From: Agrobacterium salinitolerans
Lineage (GTDB): Bacteria; Pseudomonadota; Alphaproteobacteria; Rhizobiales; Rhizobiaceae
Reading direction: 5' to 3'
Assembly (NCBI RefSeq): GCF_002008225.1
Contig: NZ_MRDH01000027.1
Span: forward strand, 186,001-250,000
DNA: 64,000 bases
Under the pieces are notes generated by a model that saw only the letters and a program-made list of their open reading frames with translations, was not told the DNA's origin and did not search any database. This document shows positions 4,583 to 64,000 of the stretch, piece by piece (the first letter of the stretch is position 1; the number at the start of each line of letters is the position of its first letter). A program made the position numbers and the translations under genes.

Positions 4583-5526
4583 CAGGTCGCCTCCACCGCG
4601 CCATACTGGCGGATTTCGCGCACGCCGAAAGCGCCACTCATCGAGCCCATATGCAGTGCGCCACGCAGCGCATAACGATTGCGGCGCACGGCGTTGAGAC
4701 CGTTCAAGGCGGCGAAGAGCGCGCAATAAAGCACTTTCGAACCTGCCTTCAGCACCTGCCCCACGCGGCGTATACCGGGTTTCCTGTCCGCCAGCACGCG
4801 GCCGTGGGTCTGGCCGGAGCGGAAGCGGCGTTTGGCAAGCCATAGGAAGCTTGCGCGATTTTCCGGCACGGGTTCGGACAACATGGCATCTTCCGCAAAG
4901 ACAATACGCCCGCCGGCGGCGTGAAGATGCGAGAAGAAATGGGTGTCTTCGCCGCCGCTCTGGCCGAGCGCCAGCGCGAAGCGCCGGCCCTTCACCGAAG
5001 GCGCATCCATCTTGAGCAGCGTGTTGCAGGTATAGCCGGTGATGATCTCGCCATTCACCCAGACCGGAACGGTCGAGTGGAAATCGCCGCGTTTCATCCA
5101 TCCCGGCGCATTGTCCCGGTAAACGGCCGCTACGGGGCCGAGAACCGCTTCCGCACCGGTCTCGCCGGCTTTTTCCAGAAGGGCGGAGAGCCAGTGCGGC
5201 GGGGCGGTTTCGTCATCATCGATGAAGGCGAGGTAATCCGCCTTGCATTCCGACAGGCAGGCATTGCGGGCAATCGAAATATTCGATTTCGGGCAATGGA
5301 CATAGGTGATCTCGAACGGGGCGGTTTCGCGCAGGCGATCGACGCTCGCCTTGGCGCTCGGCTCCTCGTCATTATCGGCGACGATAAGACGAACTTTCAC
5401 GCCTTCCGGCACGTCCAGCTCGAAGAGTGACAGAAGTGTGGCGATAAGTGCCGGGCGTCTGTAGGTGCAAATGCCGATATCGACGGTTTTCGAATCATCT
5501 GGGCGGGTGACGGTGTTGTCGGTCAT
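4582..5526 (-). CDS. exoM: ExoM, succinoglycan glycosyltransferase (GT2)
   Basis: Family-2 glycosyltransferase of 314 aa for a beta-1,4-glucose addition in succinoglycan repeat-unit assembly. Visible motifs are ICTYRRP (19-25) at the start of the nucleotide-binding fold, VADNDEE (49-55) and the metal-site motif IDDDE (102-106). A GGED motif further on fits the catalytic-base region. The ATG at 5526 overlaps the exoA stop by four bases (ATGA), so translation is probably coupled; the longer open frame upstream belongs to exoA. The gene sits between exoA and exoO as in S. meliloti. Confidence 0.88.
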   Translation of the reverse strand: MTDNTVTRPDDSKTVDIGICTYRRPALIATLLSLFELDVPEGVKVRLIVADNDEEPSAKASVDRLRETAPFEITYVHCPKSNISIARNACLSECKADYLAFIDDDETAPPHWLSALLEKAGETGAEAVLGPVAAVYRDNAPGWMKRGDFHSTVPVWVNGEIITGYTCNTLLKMDAPSVKGRRFALALGQSGGEDTHFFSHLHAAGGRIVFAEDAMLSEPVPENRASFLWLAKRRFRSGQTHGRVLADRKPGIRRVGQVLKAGSKVLYCALFAALNGLNAVRRNRYALRGALHMGSMSGAFGVREIRQYGAVEAT

Positions 5527-6521
5527 GAGACAGCCTTTCTTCCCCGGAATTTCAGGAGTTCCAGCCAGAAGCCGGTGGACCAGGCCAGATGCATCACCAT
5601 CGCCGAAAAGGCGGCGAGCGGGCCGTATGGGTTTTTCTGACCTATTGCCATCCACAAGCCATAACCCAAACATGCGGCGATCCAGAGGCCGAGCGGGATA
5701 AGGGCCGCCCAATGCACGAGCGATAGCAGCGCGAAGATGAACACCGGCAAGACGGCGAGCGGGATCATCTGGCGGATTTTCGGGATCGAGCGATGCTTCA
5801 GGAGGTTCTTCGCCCGGCCGCGGCCATAGGCGAGATATTGCCGGAACAGCGGCATGACGCTGGCGCGCGGATAATAGGTCATGCGGGTCTTGTCGGTCAT
5901 CCAGATACGGAAACCGGATTTGCGCAGGCGGAAATCCAGTTCGGCATCCTCATTGTGGCTGAAGCTCTCGTCATAGCCGCCGACCGCGTCGAAGGCGGCA
6001 ATCCGCATCAAGGCGTGATGGCCATGGTCGATCCAGTGGCCTTTGGCACCCTCGCGGTGCTTGGAACCGCCATTGCCGAGCTTGGAATTCTGGGCGACGG
6101 CCGTCGCTTTCTGAAACAGGCCGTGGCCGATGGTGTCCATGGCGACGACGACAGAATCCGCGCCGGTGCGTTCCGCATCTTCGATCAGCCGCTGGCAATA
6201 GTCATCGGGATAATCGCCATGGGCGTCGATGCGGATGAGATAGTCGAAATCCTCGCCGAAGGTGGCAACGGCAAGGTTGATGCCAGCGCTCTGGATGCGC
6301 TTCGCATTGGCGAGAAGTGTGACGCGGTCATCCGTCGCCGCAAAGGCGGAAACGATATCGCGGGTTCCATCCGTGCTGCCGCCATCGGCAACCACGATAC
6401 GGAAGAGACGCCCCTGCATTGCATTGGTGAATTTGACAAGCAGCCCCTCGATTGTCTTTGCCTCATTGAGGCAAGGAATGACGATCAGCGTTCTGATGCC
6501 GGAATGACCAAGACCTTCCAT
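5523..6521 (-). CDS. exoA: ExoA, membrane-anchored succinoglycan glucosyltransferase
   Basis: Family-2 glycosyltransferase of 332 aa that adds an early beta-1,3-linked glucose. The catalytic part has VIPCLNEA (14-21), ADGGSTDGT (45-53), DAHGDYP (99-105) and HNEDAEL (189-195). Three membrane segments (about 252-270, 272-293, 302-323) close the protein and tie it to the inner membrane, as known for ExoA. The start is the ATG at 6521 with AGGGGG 8 bases upstream; a GTG at 6539 is the alternative. It ends in a four-base overlap with exoM and lies 17 bp after the exoL stop codon. Confidence 0.9.
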   Translation of the reverse strand: MEGLGHSGIRTLIVIPCLNEAKTIEGLLVKFTNAMQGRLFRIVVADGGSTDGTRDIVSAFAATDDRVTLLANAKRIQSAGINLAVATFGEDFDYLIRIDAHGDYPDDYCQRLIEDAERTGADSVVVAMDTIGHGLFQKATAVAQNSKLGNGGSKHREGAKGHWIDHGHHALMRIAAFDAVGGYDESFSHNEDAELDFRLRKSGFRIWMTDKTRMTYYPRASVMPLFRQYLAYGRGRAKNLLKHRSIPKIRQMIPLAVLPVFIFALLSLVHWAALIPLGLWIAACLGYGLWMAIGQKNPYGPLAAFSAMVMHLAWSTGFWLELLKFRGRKAVS

Positions 6522-6538: not shown

Positions 6539-7720
6539 CTACACGGTTGAAAACTGCGCTTCACGGGCATGGCCGGAAGCGGATGTGGTGAGCGAGGACA
6601 AGTGCTGGACCAGCCGACGGCAATCGTCGCGGTCCGTCAGCCATTGTTTCCTGTCGATTGCCGAGAGGGTGTCGAAGGCGTTCGCATAGGTTTGCGGCGT
6701 CATTTGGCCGAACAGTGCGGCGAGGTCGTCCGGGCTTGCATTTGCCAAGACAAAGCCGATATCGCGTTTTTCGATGAATCGGGCGGTTTCCGTGCCGGAA
6801 AGCGCAATCGGCAGGGTGCCATAAAGGCCGCCTTCATAAAGCCGATTGGGCAGCAGCCAGCTGGAATTCTGGCCTTCTTCGAAGAAGTCGATCGCCCAGG
6901 TGAACTGCACCTCGTTGTAGATCGCGGCTAGATCCTCGGGGTTTTTGTAAGGTCCGTGGAAGTGCAAATGCGGGGCAGCGGCCACGAAGCCATCGAAATC
7001 GGTAAACTCCGAATAGGCCGGCCGGCCACGCAGGATGATTTCGACCCGGCCTTCCATGCGGCGGGCAAACTCAGCGAGGATTTCTAGCGACCTACGGCAG
7101 CGAAGCGCCCCGAACCAGCCGATTTTCCATGGTTCGCCGGGCTTGGGGGGGCGGGGTTGCGGCGCGGCGGCAACGGTGCTGTCGAGCGCCAGCACCTTGT
7201 TTTCCTGCAAAAGGACGGGAAGGTCGAGGCCCGACACAGGTTTGAAATAATGCTCCACGAATGCCGGAGAACTCGTGACCAGCAGTTTGGCGTCGCGTGC
7301 GAAATAACGTTGCGCAGCATTCAGCAGCTGTCCGGGCCTGCCTTTGTTGAGAAGCAGGCGGTGAATATCGAGACATTCGTAAACCAGTGCTGGCTGGCCG
7401 CTATAGATCGACATGGCCCGCTTTGCCAGAGCCAGCATTTCGAGGTTCCTGGCAAGAATGATGTCGGGTGTCGGGATGCCGCTCAGGACCTTTCCAAGCG
7501 AAAGGCTGGCTTTTGCCACAGCCGCCATGCGTTGCAGAAACTGCCCGTCGGCGGTCTCCCCAAGCACGACGGGCACGACGCCCTCGATTTCCGCCAGCTG
7601 GTTCTGCCCGCGCCGGAAACCTGCCAGCGTGACCCGCGCCCCGCCCGCGAGCAAGGTCAGCACCCGCCGGCGAATGGCGGGGTCCGACAGATCATGCGCG
7701 AGATAGAGAATATGGGTCAT
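6539..7720 (-). CDS. exoL: ExoL, succinoglycan glycosyltransferase
   Basis: Glycosyltransferase of 393 aa thought to add the second sugar (first glucose) onto the lipid-linked galactose. It has the look of a GT-B type enzyme: an N-terminal Rossmann-like start (HILYLAHDLSDPAIRRR) and a C-terminal half with WKIGWFGALRCRRSLE and a late acidic nucleotide-sugar site region, where EEGQNSSWLLPNRLYEGG is the family-type donor loop. There are no membrane segments. The ATG at 7720 opens the frame directly. Placement between exoK and exoA, with similar length to rhizobial ExoL, supports the name; the assignment to a specific step is from the S. meliloti pathway. Confidence 0.87.
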   Translation of the reverse strand: MTHILYLAHDLSDPAIRRRVLTLLAGGARVTLAGFRRGQNQLAEIEGVVPVVLGETADGQFLQRMAAVAKASLSLGKVLSGIPTPDIILARNLEMLALAKRAMSIYSGQPALVYECLDIHRLLLNKGRPGQLLNAAQRYFARDAKLLVTSSPAFVEHYFKPVSGLDLPVLLQENKVLALDSTVAAAPQPRPPKPGEPWKIGWFGALRCRRSLEILAEFARRMEGRVEIILRGRPAYSEFTDFDGFVAAAPHLHFHGPYKNPEDLAAIYNEVQFTWAIDFFEEGQNSSWLLPNRLYEGGLYGTLPIALSGTETARFIEKRDIGFVLANASPDDLAALFGQMTPQTYANAFDTLSAIDRKQWLTDRDDCRRLVQHLSSLTTSASGHAREAQFSTV

Positions 7721-60107: not shown

Positions 60108-61655
60108 TCAGAGCATGCCGCTCATCTTGAGATAATAATTTTCTGCGTTGTCGTCGGAAGCCGCTGCAGGCGTGCTTTCCTGCTCGTCGGTCGGGTCATT
60201 GGCAGCAATGCGTTCTTCCGTATCATCCTGACCATCGGAATTTTCAGCCTCGGTCTCGGCCTCACCTTCCGCCTCATCCTCGGAAAAGGGACCGCCTCCG
60301 CGTGGCGGTGTTTCCGATTCATAGTCTTCGTCCGCCGGCGGATAGGCGATGAGCGGCAGCGGCGTGCCGTCTTTTACCAGGGCGGCGGCGATCAATGACT
60401 GCGAAGCCGATTGCTCCAGCATCGCCATTCTCGCTTCCGGGTCCAGTGTGGCGCGCGACAGGGGCTGGGCTTCTGGACGATGGGTCGCCGTCTCCGTTTC
60501 TTCACCCGAGGGGCGGGCGGCGGCCGTTGCGACGGTGGCTTTTTCAGCGGCCTGGTCGTCGGGCGGTTGCTGTGCGCCACTTTGCGGCGTGGGCAGAGGC
60601 TGCTGTGTACCGGCTGCCTTGGCAGGAAGCTTGCCGGCTGTGGCGGCAAGCAGCAGGGTGTTCATGGTCTCGGCGTCGTCCGCGAGCGGACCGGATGGCG
60701 GGGTAAATCCCGTGCGGATTTCTTTCTGCTCCGGCTTCATCGTCTCCCGATGCGGAAGGGCGGGGCGGGCTTCGCCCGTTTCGGCGCGGGGCGGATTTGC
60801 CGGGCGGACCTCGGCCGATACTTCCTTCGTCACGCTGCCGGTTTGTGGCGGAAGCGGACGTGCCGCGTTTTCGGCTCTTCCATCCGGCTTTGCGGCATTG
60901 GTCGGCATCTCAAGTGTGTCGGCAGGCGGAGTGGAAGGCGCAGGCCGGGGGTCCAGTTGCGCCGTTAGCGCCGCCACCGTTGCTTTCATTGCTGCGCCGC
61001 TGAGGGCGAGCGGCCCGATGAGCAGCGGCAGGAGCCGGCTGACGGTGGCGGAATTTGCCGCCTGCGCTGTCGCGGCCGGAGACGGGCGAGCTTCCGCATT
61101 CTGGCTCTGCGCGTTCTGCTGTTTCGGCTGGGCCGATTGCGCGGGCGCGGGATTGGAGGAATTGTTCTGCTGATAGGAGGAAATCACCGCCTTCGCCGCA
61201 AGATCCATTCCCCTGTAACGGGAAAGCTCGACCAGTAGCGCGAGGCGGGCGGCATCCGGTCCGGTCGGCTGTTTCAGGATTTCGGCGAGCATCGAAAGGG
61301 TCAGACCCTGCAGGGCCTTGCCGACCTGCTGTTCCAACGCCAGGCGTTGTGACGCCGGCAGGGTGCGGAGCGCTTCCGTCAGCCGCGTCACATAGGTCTC
61401 TATGGCCTCGCCATCCCGCCGGGGCAGGTTCATCAGCTTGCCGAGTGCTTCCGCGAGAATCGCGGTGCTGCGCGAGAGCTGAAACTCACTGGTAAGGGAG
61501 GCGATTGCCGCACGGGCAAAAAGGCTGCTGTTTTCAGGGGCGGGGGTGCTCGGCAATGGCGGTGCGATCTCTTTCACCTGCTCGCGCGGTGTCAGTGAAA
61601 CCGTGGCTCCATAGGCGGCGTCGGTTGCCGCAATTTTCGCGACAGGCGGTAACAT
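60108..61655 (-). CDS. Unrecognised 515-aa protein with a disordered middle and a DDN...Y tail
   Basis: No family is recognised. The start is at 61655 with GGAGCG upstream. An ordered helical part runs to about 180 (SEFQLSRSTAILAEALGKLMNLP, ETYVTRLTEALRTLPASQRLAL, EILKQPTGPDAARLALLVELSRYRGMDLAAKAV). A long Ala/Pro/Thr/Glu-rich region follows to about 420, then an acidic stretch. The last residues are SDDNAENYYLKMSGML. There is no signal peptide or membrane helix. Domain layout resembles hook-length or secretion-substrate proteins, but only in composition. Its tail matches those of the next two genes on this strand. Confidence 0.75.
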   Translation of the reverse strand: MLPPVAKIAATDAAYGATVSLTPREQVKEIAPPLPSTPAPENSSLFARAAIASLTSEFQLSRSTAILAEALGKLMNLPRRDGEAIETYVTRLTEALRTLPASQRLALEQQVGKALQGLTLSMLAEILKQPTGPDAARLALLVELSRYRGMDLAAKAVISSYQQNNSSNPAPAQSAQPKQQNAQSQNAEARPSPAATAQAANSATVSRLLPLLIGPLALSGAAMKATVAALTAQLDPRPAPSTPPADTLEMPTNAAKPDGRAENAARPLPPQTGSVTKEVSAEVRPANPPRAETGEARPALPHRETMKPEQKEIRTGFTPPSGPLADDAETMNTLLLAATAGKLPAKAAGTQQPLPTPQSGAQQPPDDQAAEKATVATAAARPSGEETETATHRPEAQPLSRATLDPEARMAMLEQSASQSLIAAALVKDGTPLPLIAYPPADEDYESETPPRGGGPFSEDEAEGEAETEAENSDGQDDTEERIAANDPTDEQESTPAAASDDNAENYYLKMSGML

Positions 61656-61784
61656 GCTGCGCTCCGTTTCTATCGGTGACCGCCGCTGGCGGCGAAAGGG
61701 CCAATCCCCATTGGCTCTGTGATCCGCATCTGGCTTGAATGTTGAAAAAATCGCCGCGCCGGTGATGGACAGGTGTCATCTCGC

Positions 61785-61842
61785 CCGCTCATGCGGGAGC
61801 GCCGTATACGCCTCTGCCCGCAATGCGGGCGGCAGCGCATAC
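61785..61842. repeat. Complex palindrome between two unknown genes
   Basis: Two hairpins: CCCGC-TCAT-GCGGG (about 61783-61797) and a larger imperfect one, 61804-61821 with 61825-61842, whose core is GCCCGC-AAT-GCGGGC. It lies in the 253-bp gap between the genes at 60108 and 61909 and could end or stabilise the mRNA. It is different from the RIME-like copies. Confidence 0.7.
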
Positions 61843-61908
61843 AGAATCATCAAGCTCAATCTTGGCTTGCAGATATTAAGATTTGGCTAACCAACGAATT
61901 GGCGTCCG

Positions 61909-62217
61909 TTAGGGAGAAACGCCGATGAACATCCGGTAAAGGCCGTTATCGTCGGAATTGACCGAGGAAATATGGTCGGGATCGCTGGGTGCCGTCTCAA
62001 AAGCTTCCGGCGGCATGGCGTCGAGCCAGCTTGCCTTGGGAAGTCTTCTTTCGGGTTGAGCGTTCGCGGGGTCGATGGGGCTGGCTTCGTCAGCGGGCGC
62101 GGTGAAGGCCGCATCATCGGGGACGAGCGGCGGGGCGGCCATGGATAGCAGCGCCTGCGCGGCATTGGGTTCTGTGTCGTAAGCGGCGCTGCCAGCCAGG
62201 CCGGAAATATCGGTCAT
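61909..62217 (-). CDS. Unrecognised small protein with a DDNGLY tail
   Basis: 102 aa (ATG at 62217; a GTG at 62229 is the other option). Composition is acidic and Ala/Pro-rich, likely disordered (AQALLSMAAPPLVPDDAAF). It ends SDDNGLYRMFIGVSP. The DDNGLY hexamer is shared exactly with the protein at 62267. No function is known. It lies 49 bp downstream of that gene, likely one transcript. Confidence 0.65.
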   Translation of the reverse strand: MTDISGLAGSAAYDTEPNAAQALLSMAAPPLVPDDAAFTAPADEASPIDPANAQPERRLPKASWLDAMPPEAFETAPSDPDHISSVNSDDNGLYRMFIGVSP

Positions 62218-62266
62218 GTCTGAACTCACATCATGTTTTGTTCAAGGGAATGATCGGGAGCGGCAA

Positions 62267-63493
62267 TCATGCCGCCTTCTTCTTCAGCAGTTCATAAAGG
62301 CCATTGTCGTCGATCGAGATCGGCAAAATGGCTCTGCGGGCGTCTTCGACAAGCGCCTGCGCATCGAGCAGTTTTTGGCCGTCCGTTTCCGTCTCGGCCC
62401 GATTGCGGCCGGTGTCTGTCTCCGCGGGCACATTTTCGGTTTCCGCCGGGGCGGCCTGCTCAGCGGGCGCAGCTGCAAGTACGGAGATCAGTGTCGTTTC
62501 CGATGACGTGTCGGCCGGCGCCTGCGGGTCGTCGCCTGCCGTTTTTTCGTCGCCGGAAGCATCGATATGCTCCTTCACGACGTCCTGGAGCTCTTTAACG
62601 TCGTCAAGCTTGCCCTGCGCATTGCGGGCCTGAATATCCTGTTTCCTTTCGGCCTTCACTTCGGCATCGTTGATTTCGCCGATGCGTTCTTCACCACGTT
62701 CGGCCTGCAACTCTTCCTTGGTTTTGGGATCGGCGACGTCTTCCAGACGCTGGATGACCTTCAGGGTTTCACGCGTCATGAAACTGGCGCTCTGCGTCTG
62801 GTGGTTCAGCGCGTCCTTAACGGCGCGCGCCTCATCGCCATAGGGATTGGCGATGGCGGCGATCATCTGCCGGGCGGAGACGCCGAGTTGTTTGATGCCG
62901 GTCGATTCTTCCAGATCGTCGACGTTTTTCGGCAGGGTCGCGCGCGCCGCCATGATGGCATTCGACATCTGCTCGCCGAAATCCTCTTCCGTGCCGGTCA
63001 GGCCTGCGCCCTTCGCAATGCGGGCGGCAAGCGCGGCCATGGGGGCGGTCTTGGCGTTGGCGCCGTTGTTCAGCACATCCACGACCTGCGCTTCCGAAAC
63101 GCCAAAGGATATCAGGGAAATCTTCCTGGCATTTCCCAGTGCGTCGGATTTTTCGAACTGGGTCAGCGTAAGCGCGTCCTGGAGCCGGCTTGCGAAGGCA
63201 AAGCTCGATTCGTTTGCTTCCTGCGTGACGCCAAGCGCAGAAACAAACCGGGAGATGAGGGACAAGAAAGCGTCAGGATCGAGTTTCATGGCGCCGAAGA
63301 GATAGGCGCTTATCTTCTCGTTGGCGGCGCGCTGGCTTTCGTCCGGGAGCGGGTTTGTCTTGACCGCATCGTTCTTTTTGGTGCCGTTGGCCTTTTCCTG
63401 CTCTTCGCGCTGGCGTTCTTCGATAGTTTCAACCATCGAGCGCATGAGGTCGCTGACTGCAATGCCCGCCGTCCGCTGTAACGGAGTAATCAT
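62267..63493 (-). CDS. Unrecognised 408-aa protein with a DDNGLY tail
   Basis: The ATG at 63493 (MITPLQRTAG) is preferred over 63538. It is predicted mostly helical: MRSMVETIEERQREEQEK, ISAYLFGAMKLDPDAFLSLI, and a charged coiled stretch ELQAERGEERIGEINDAEVKAERKQD. A Glu/Ala/Pro/Thr-rich linker leads to DGQKLLDAQALVEDARRAILPISIDDNGLYELLKKKAA in the window's pattern. No membrane part. It opens the three-gene set after the rnd gene. Function unknown. Confidence 0.72.
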   Translation of the reverse strand: MITPLQRTAGIAVSDLMRSMVETIEERQREEQEKANGTKKNDAVKTNPLPDESQRAANEKISAYLFGAMKLDPDAFLSLISRFVSALGVTQEANESSFAFASRLQDALTLTQFEKSDALGNARKISLISFGVSEAQVVDVLNNGANAKTAPMAALAARIAKGAGLTGTEEDFGEQMSNAIMAARATLPKNVDDLEESTGIKQLGVSARQMIAAIANPYGDEARAVKDALNHQTQSASFMTRETLKVIQRLEDVADPKTKEELQAERGEERIGEINDAEVKAERKQDIQARNAQGKLDDVKELQDVVKEHIDASGDEKTAGDDPQAPADTSSETTLISVLAAAPAEQAAPAETENVPAETDTGRNRAETETDGQKLLDAQALVEDARRAILPISIDDNGLYELLKKKAA

Positions 63494-63576
63494 CTGGAAA
63501 ATCCCCGGCCGCCCAAAGTTGCGGCCGAGAATAGGCAATTCTGGTAAATCAGTGCTTAAACGAAGCGGCAGAAGGC

Positions 63577-64000
63577 TCAGCTATGGGCGAAAATATCGGT
63601 TTCTTCCCAGCCGAGGAGATCGAGCTTCGCGCGGGTCGGCAGAAAGGCGAAACAGGCGTCGGCATGGTCGAGGCGGCCGTCACGCACGAGACGCCCCGTC
63701 AGCTTGTCGCGCAGCGCGTGCAGGTGCAGCACGTCGGAGGCTGCATATTCGAGCTGGGCCGGCGACAGGGTCTCGGCAGCCCAGTCGGAAGATTGCTGGG
63801 CCTTGGAAATATCGACTTCCAGCATTTCCTTGAGATTATCCTTCAGCCCGTGCCGGTCGGTATAGGTGCGGGTCAGCCGCGAGGCGATCTTGGTGCAGAA
63901 GACCGGCGTGGTCGTCACGCCGAAGGTGTGGAACAAAACAGCGATATCGAAACGGCCATAGTGAAAGATCTTCTGGCGGGCGGGGTCGGCAAGCATCCGC
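63577..64000 (-). CDS. rnd: Ribonuclease D, C-terminal part (runs past the window edge)
   Basis: The last part of a DEDD-family 3'-5' exoribonuclease. QKIFHYGRFDIAVL is the third-motif region with a catalytic Asp. SWAAETLSPAQLEYAASDVLHLHALRDKL carries the last conserved Tyr and Asp (DEDDy type). The start is beyond 64000. It lies 84 bp upstream of the 408-aa unknown gene on the same strand. The short rhizobial form without HRDC domains is suggested by the early stop. Confidence 0.9.
   Translation of the reverse strand, partial: RMLADPARQKIFHYGRFDIAVLFHTFGVTTTPVFCTKIASRLTRTYTDRHGLKDNLKEMLEVDISKAQQSSDWAAETLSPAQLEYAASDVLHLHALRDKLTGRLVRDGRLDHADACFAFLPTRAKLDLLGWEETDIFAHS

Follow-up and report, generated by a model that had tools for sequence, protein, structure and literature searches.

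Three consecutive minus-strand genes, here called P1, P2 and P3, lie near one end of a 64,000-nucleotide stretch of Agrobacterium salinitolerans contig NZ_MRDH01000027.1 (hereafter the window). Downstream of rnd, whose end is present at 63577-64000 and is cut by the window edge, follow P3 (62267-63493, 408 aa), P2 (61909-62217, 102 aa) and P1 (60108-61655, 515 aa), with 49 bp between P3 and P2 and 253 bp between P2 and P1; P1 is convergent with rpsA. As the original prediction held, these open reading frames (ORFs) belong to no recognised family: Pfam returned no family for any of them at E-values up to 1, and NCBIfam and PHROGs gave one weak match each (E 0.009, far below the NCBIfam cut-off, and E 0.023). 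Ten relatives searched against Pfam and NCBIfam gave only matches below the cut-offs, the best being DUF4129 at E 4.6e-4, and of two sequence searches of solved structures one had a best E of 0.47 and the other no match. We make no claim that the family described below is unpublished; the literature could not be searched by its sequence or locus tag.

The three proteins had been described as unlike one another apart from their ends. This does not hold for P1 and P3, which share a homologous helical domain near their N-termini (profile comparison 95.3%, E 2.4e-8). In P1 the domain is single (residues ~44-165, 61161-61526, minus strand) and is followed by a long Pro/Ala linker, a G-x-P-L-P-x-V-x-Y-P-like block, an acidic stretch and the C-terminal tail. 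In P3 it spans residues ~70-240 (62774-63286, minus strand) as two tandem repeats, residues 70-146 and 147-240, preceded by a helix and followed by more long helices, an acidic/Ala linker and a tail ending AA. The two repeats match each other by hhalign at 97.7% and E 2e-12 (two control pairs gave E 0.04 and 0.08; 30 of the 49 alignment rows entered, the rest being without most of this stretch). A profile of the P1 domain (alignment A4) run over the whole genome of the strain found P1 (E 5e-49) and P3 (E 3e-4) and nothing else at E 0.001. P2 has no helical domain and consists of a conserved LDA block, mostly WLDA, and the tail; since the tail is present and the domain absent, we do not file it as a family member. 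The Ala/Pro/Glu-rich parts noted earlier are confirmed as linkers in this set of proteins.

All three genes had also been thought to end in a common DDN...Y tail. The quoted motifs are present, at slightly internal positions: 4-5 more residues follow them in P1, P2 and P3 (SGML, IGVSP and KKKAA), so that the full tails read DDNAENYYLKMSGML (60111-60155), SDDNGLYRMFIGVSP (61912-61956) and IDDNGLYELLKKKAA (62270-62314), all on the minus strand. After merging identical proteins we compared 79 distinct P1, 25 P2 and 60 P3 sequences. A motif D-x-x-G-x-[YF] falls in the C-terminal 25 residues in 59/60 P3 and 25/25 P2 proteins, and in none of the 79 P1 proteins; elsewhere in these proteins it occurs 3, 0 and 3 times, respectively. 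The P3 without it is the second copy in locus L213, which has DEIGIY slightly further in. P1 carries a tail of its own, A-x-x-[LY]-Y-x-[RK]-M-x-G, which in the looser form Y-x(0-2)-[RK]-[MLI] is found in 77 of 79 sequences. Its apparent match to the others arose from a literal DDN that, besides the window's P1, is found near the end of 1/79 homologues; Y-x-[RK]-M is kept and DDN is not. The common tail therefore stands for P3 and P2 and falls for P1.

The P2 tail could also be recognised by profile, matching the P3 tail at E 5.4e-5 over a 20-column matching end and the tail of a family of smaller relatives (below) at E 2.9e-5; the P2 profile aligns to the other profiles at the tail only. In P2 and P3 between 6 and 18 residues follow the tail tyrosine, and P3 tails commonly read DEIG or DDIG. 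The ends of P3 are further marked by a terminal AA in 53/60 sequences, of which LAA is found in 19/60. Among 218 called genes in 20 regions, selected as holding family matches, 20 end in D-x-x-G-x-[YF], every one of them of the P2, P3 or small-family type, in keeping with the expectation that the motif would be commoner at C-termini than by chance. A scan of the strain's whole genome for DNA that could encode D-[DE]-x-G-[hydrophobic]-Y gave 17 matches, compared with 4 for the same pattern read backwards. Three of the 17 are in frame and at most 20 codons from a stop, and these are P2, P3 and the flagellar gene fliK.

P1, P2 and P3 are real genes under selection. Over the 18 C-terminal residues, ratios of nonsynonymous to synonymous substitution (dN/dS), pooled by simple counting over 14 genus sequences per protein, are 0.03 for P2, 0.10 for P3 and 0.11 for P1; the P2/P3 tail is kept in orthologues, as had been anticipated, and is more constrained than the linkers. 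The domains, for which the columns are approximate, give 0.07-0.16 (P1) and 0.11-0.25 (P3), the rest of P2 0.11-0.31, most linkers 0.23-0.58, and the P3 linker preceding the tail 0.23-0.41.

Among 61 genomes of relatives, P1 was found in 37, P3 in 22 and P2 in the same 22, while none of the three was found in 24 genomes of other families. P1 occurs throughout the genus (37 of 37 genomes); P2 and P3 occur only together, in 22 of these, and the pair is missing from 15. This is the co-occurrence that had been predicted, with the reservation that the 15 lacking genomes may be one lineage and the pattern a single event. In 297 genomes of the wider family, P1 matches by sequence in 34 and P2 by profile in 16 at E 0.01; two of the latter are doubtful, with E close to 0.008, and the one in genome G116 lies inside a P3 gene.

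The predicted synteny with rnd and rpsA was recovered in 88 of 95 loci, which all hold rnd, P1 and rpsA; the 95 were taken from two collections and chosen for holding P1 or P3, and some genomes are represented twice. Their arrangements are rnd-P3-P1-rpsA (35), rnd-P3-P2-P1-rpsA (28), rnd-P1-rpsA (17) and rnd-P2-P1-rpsA (5), with two P3 copies in the other 3. Of the remaining seven, L094 and L154 end with the contig and the rest are without one or more detected neighbours (neither rnd nor rpsA in L106, no rnd in L108 and L212, no P1 or rpsA in L160 and L176). A different order of rnd, P3, P2, P1 and rpsA was not seen in any of the 95. Named hosts include Agrobacterium, Neorhizobium, Pararhizobium, Pseudorhizobium, Mycoplana and Rhizobium, with Shinella from the plasmid collection.

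P3 has a wider set of relatives than this locus. Its profile matches 57 of the 297 family genomes, in 37 of 109 genera, and many of these matches are small members of ~185 aa at unrelated loci, with one copy of the domain and, in two genomes, arranged as tandem pairs or triples. By profile the small members match P3 at E 1.9e-20 and P1 at E 3e-9. D-x-x-G-x-[YF] lies within the last 25 residues of 13/14 of them and once elsewhere; since they were picked from profile matches in the 20 regions, this is not a random sample. Their alignment (A5) shows D..G.Y to be kept and the terminal AA not. In a tree of 115 domains a branch with support 99/98 separates P1 from P3 and the small members, on few columns and with some forks left open. 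P1 and P3 are ancient paralogues, with one domain copy in P1 and the small members and two in the window's P3. Plasmids of R. tropici CIAT 899 (with a worn tail), two Rhizobium strains and A. pusense carry relatives too; the plasmid records have no annotation at the matches. In an order-wide sample of 297 genomes the small-family profile matched three and the P1-domain profile six, all within the bacterial family of the host. In the samples searched the protein family was found in one bacterial family alone (Rhizobiaceae, by named records), and it is unmatched in Pfam and NCBIfam.

Some individual relatives deserve mention. Locus L202 (4855-6632) holds three small members in tandem, in a genome that is 66% complete and in which FliK was not found. 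In L203 a 141-aa protein beginning MKVDTAASYMV (6562-6987), with no Pfam match at E 0.01, adjoins a small member. L224 (genome G106, contig C31, 13427-13588) has a second match to the small-family profile, to its N-terminal part only, at E 2.7e-5.

AlphaFold models place the helical domain and the tail in different classes of confidence. For P3, residues 81-230 have block means of 93-97 in predicted local distance difference test (pLDDT) score and the last 20 residues fall below 50; for a small member, residues 71-150 score 89-93 and the end again below 50. Both models have a predicted template modelling score of 0.49. In these models the domain is confidently predicted and the tail is of low confidence and presumably disordered. 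As modelled, the tail does not pack on its own domain, and it is therefore more likely to be read by another molecule. A search of viral and PDB libraries with the P3 model gave no match at E 0.001 or better.

Sequences upstream of P3 and P1 resemble binding sites of CtrA, whose Agrobacterium consensus is given as TTAAN6GTTAAC in PMC7003649, and in this respect the two genes are like those of the Agrobacterium CtrA regulon. The putative box before P3, TTAAGCACTGATTTAC (63544-63559, minus strand), starts 66 bp before the gene and has 8/10 consensus bases; that before P1 (61876-61891, minus strand) starts 236 bp before the start codon and has 9/10, read on the opposite strand. At least 8/10 bases are found within 110 bp upstream of P3 in 55/60 cases, compared with 9/209 control upstreams, and within 260 bp upstream of P1 in 68/78, compared with 22/132. 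Controls were defined with a home-made gene caller and used where at least 60% of the length considered (110 bp for P3, 260 bp for P1) was intergenic. The looser pattern TTAAN7TTAA, allowing one mismatch and 260 bp of upstream sequence, occurs before 48/60 P3 and 65/79 P1 genes, compared with 16/177 controls and 0/31 control upstreams in the window; it also occurs in 5/25 upstreams of P2, which are mostly coding. The P3 box is kept in all 12 distinct rnd-P3 gaps of the Agrobacterium group that were aligned. P3, possibly with P2, and P1 are thus predicted CtrA targets. In S. meliloti, CtrA controls motility, cell-cycle and hypothetical genes according to PMC4433202, the main text of which does not contain the words rnd and rpsA. 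Downstream of the P3 box an inverted repeat CGGCCG...CGGCCG lies at 63506-63527 in the window and is kept in most of the 12 gaps.

A flexible, strongly conserved end that is found on a domain protein and again on a mini-protein lacking the domain is most readily explained as a docking peptide that binds a common partner. The CtrA boxes suggest timed synthesis, and the AA end of P3 timed removal. We therefore favour, with a probability of about 0.38, a reading in which P1, P3 and the small members are CtrA-controlled adaptor or scaffold proteins, timed to the cell cycle and equipped with a flexible C-terminal docking peptide, and P2 is a tail-only companion. Judging from the DNA motifs, CtrA would time the synthesis of P3, with P2, and of P1. 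The tail would be a short docking peptide bound by one common partner, as sequence and models suggest, and P2, having the tail without the domain, would share, compete for or prime the same partner. By analogy, the terminal Ala-Ala of P3 might let proteolysis of the ClpXP type remove P3 after use. A sharper version, in which D-x-x-G-[hydrophobic]-Y is a new tag for one undiscovered receptor of a rhizobial CtrA-timed adaptor family, P2 is a tag-only competitor or primer, and Ala-Ala times the removal of P3, seems doubtful to us.

Several observations weigh against this explanation. The CtrA boxes are sequence matches at related loci that are not independent of one another; the window's P3 box has 8/10 bases only, and the P1 box lies far upstream (-236). 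With 7/16 small members reaching 8/10 bases within 260 bp, CtrA control is neither shown nor excluded across the family. The terminal AA is specific to P3 (0/25 in P2, 0/79 in P1). The dN/dS of the P3 tail, at 0.10, cannot be counted as below that of the P3 domain, and low pLDDT may also come from shallow alignments (49 and 14 sequences). Many P3 loci are without P2 and six P2 loci are without P3, so that neither requires the other. P3-like proteins of L211 (5824-6909) and L218 (5165-6280) carry the domain without the tail. In L218 the P3-like gene comes after a gene for RNase D, from which a single short ORF, called on the opposite strand, separates it.

A different use of the same end would be as a C-terminal degron, with CtrA-timed synthesis followed by removal by ClpXP or Lon through the free C-terminus. 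The AA and LAA ends of P3 fit such a role, and the A. tumefaciens transfer-messenger RNA (tmRNA) tag ANDNNAKEYALAA likewise has D-N, an aromatic residue and AA (PMC12493166, Table 1); an acidic residue and Asn followed by an aromatic are also seen in near relatives. FliK, whose end in this genome is ...SDDNGVYL, matters here because in Caulobacter its last five residues, LDIRI, are reported in PMC8545394 to be needed for Lon-dependent degradation and for overexpression effects. However, P2 and the small members keep D..G.Y without AA, and the conserved part sits at a clear distance from the last residues. Beyond near relatives the tmRNA tag's DN is not retained, whereas G and Y are, and the tail was therefore rejected as a tmRNA tag. 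Overall we consider a degron unlikely.

The tail might also have no separate function, being shared by descent in P3 and the small members, acquired by partial duplication in P2, and kept for the fold or an oligomer interface. P3 and the small members are indeed homologous, and P2 adjoins P3 and matches it over the 20-column end. Its low confidence in two models and its conservation in the domain-less P2 at a dN/dS of 0.03 argue against this, and we regard it as a rather poor explanation.

We judge it improbable that the family forms part of flagellar type III export, with a tail that, like the FliK end, signals export or switching. Besides P2 and P3, the only protein of this genome found to end in D-[DE]-x-G-[hydrophobic]-Y is its FliK (Flg_hook, 57.1 bits), and like P1-P3 the FliK/MotD proteins (PF02120) combine extended regions of low complexity with a conserved free terminus; the small members start N-S-x-A-L-x-I-L, loosely resembling the starts of what we take to be flagellins. 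Of 58 FliK proteins from the same bacterial family, 52 end [VLIM]-Y-[LIMV], 43 of them with G one or two residues before. This kept end stands at the very terminus, mostly preceded by G and without D, whereas P2 and P3 run on past the tyrosine, and P1-P3 have no Flg_hook domain. D..G.[YF] is present near the end in 1/58 FliK proteins, that of this genome, with ADNG in three genus relatives; the likeness of the tails thus appears weak, and we do not take it as proof of a flagellar role. No family member was found in 60 kb holding part of the flagellar cluster (best E 0.04-0.5). DUF1217 (PF06748), a flagellar-locus protein considered as a possible relative, did not match and is rejected (hhalign probabilities 0.3% and 0.2%, one DUF1217 sequence against two profiles). 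The idea of the tail as a phage feature was discarded, as tblastn with P3 found no match in phages and the P3 alignment found 0 relatives among 302 pattern stretches in viral contigs.

The bacterial group concerned grows from its poles. With these results three hypothetical genes become a defined protein family that has a testable end tag, keeps its synteny and is predicted to be under cell-cycle control. Should the tag have a receptor, Agrobacterium and rhizobia would possess a new recognition pathway, and P2, as a natural tag-only protein, would be a ready probe for that receptor.

Other genes stand among these at some loci. A gene of ~470 aa on the opposite strand, which we take to resemble nicotinate/nicotinamide phosphoribosyltransferase, lies between P2 and P1 in nine loci (L092, L093, L094, L098, L099, L101, L103, L106 and L109). 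In L220 a gene of this kind comes before a P2-type one, both being on one strand. In L090 a 294-aa membrane-like protein (5436-6320) is encoded between rnd and P3.

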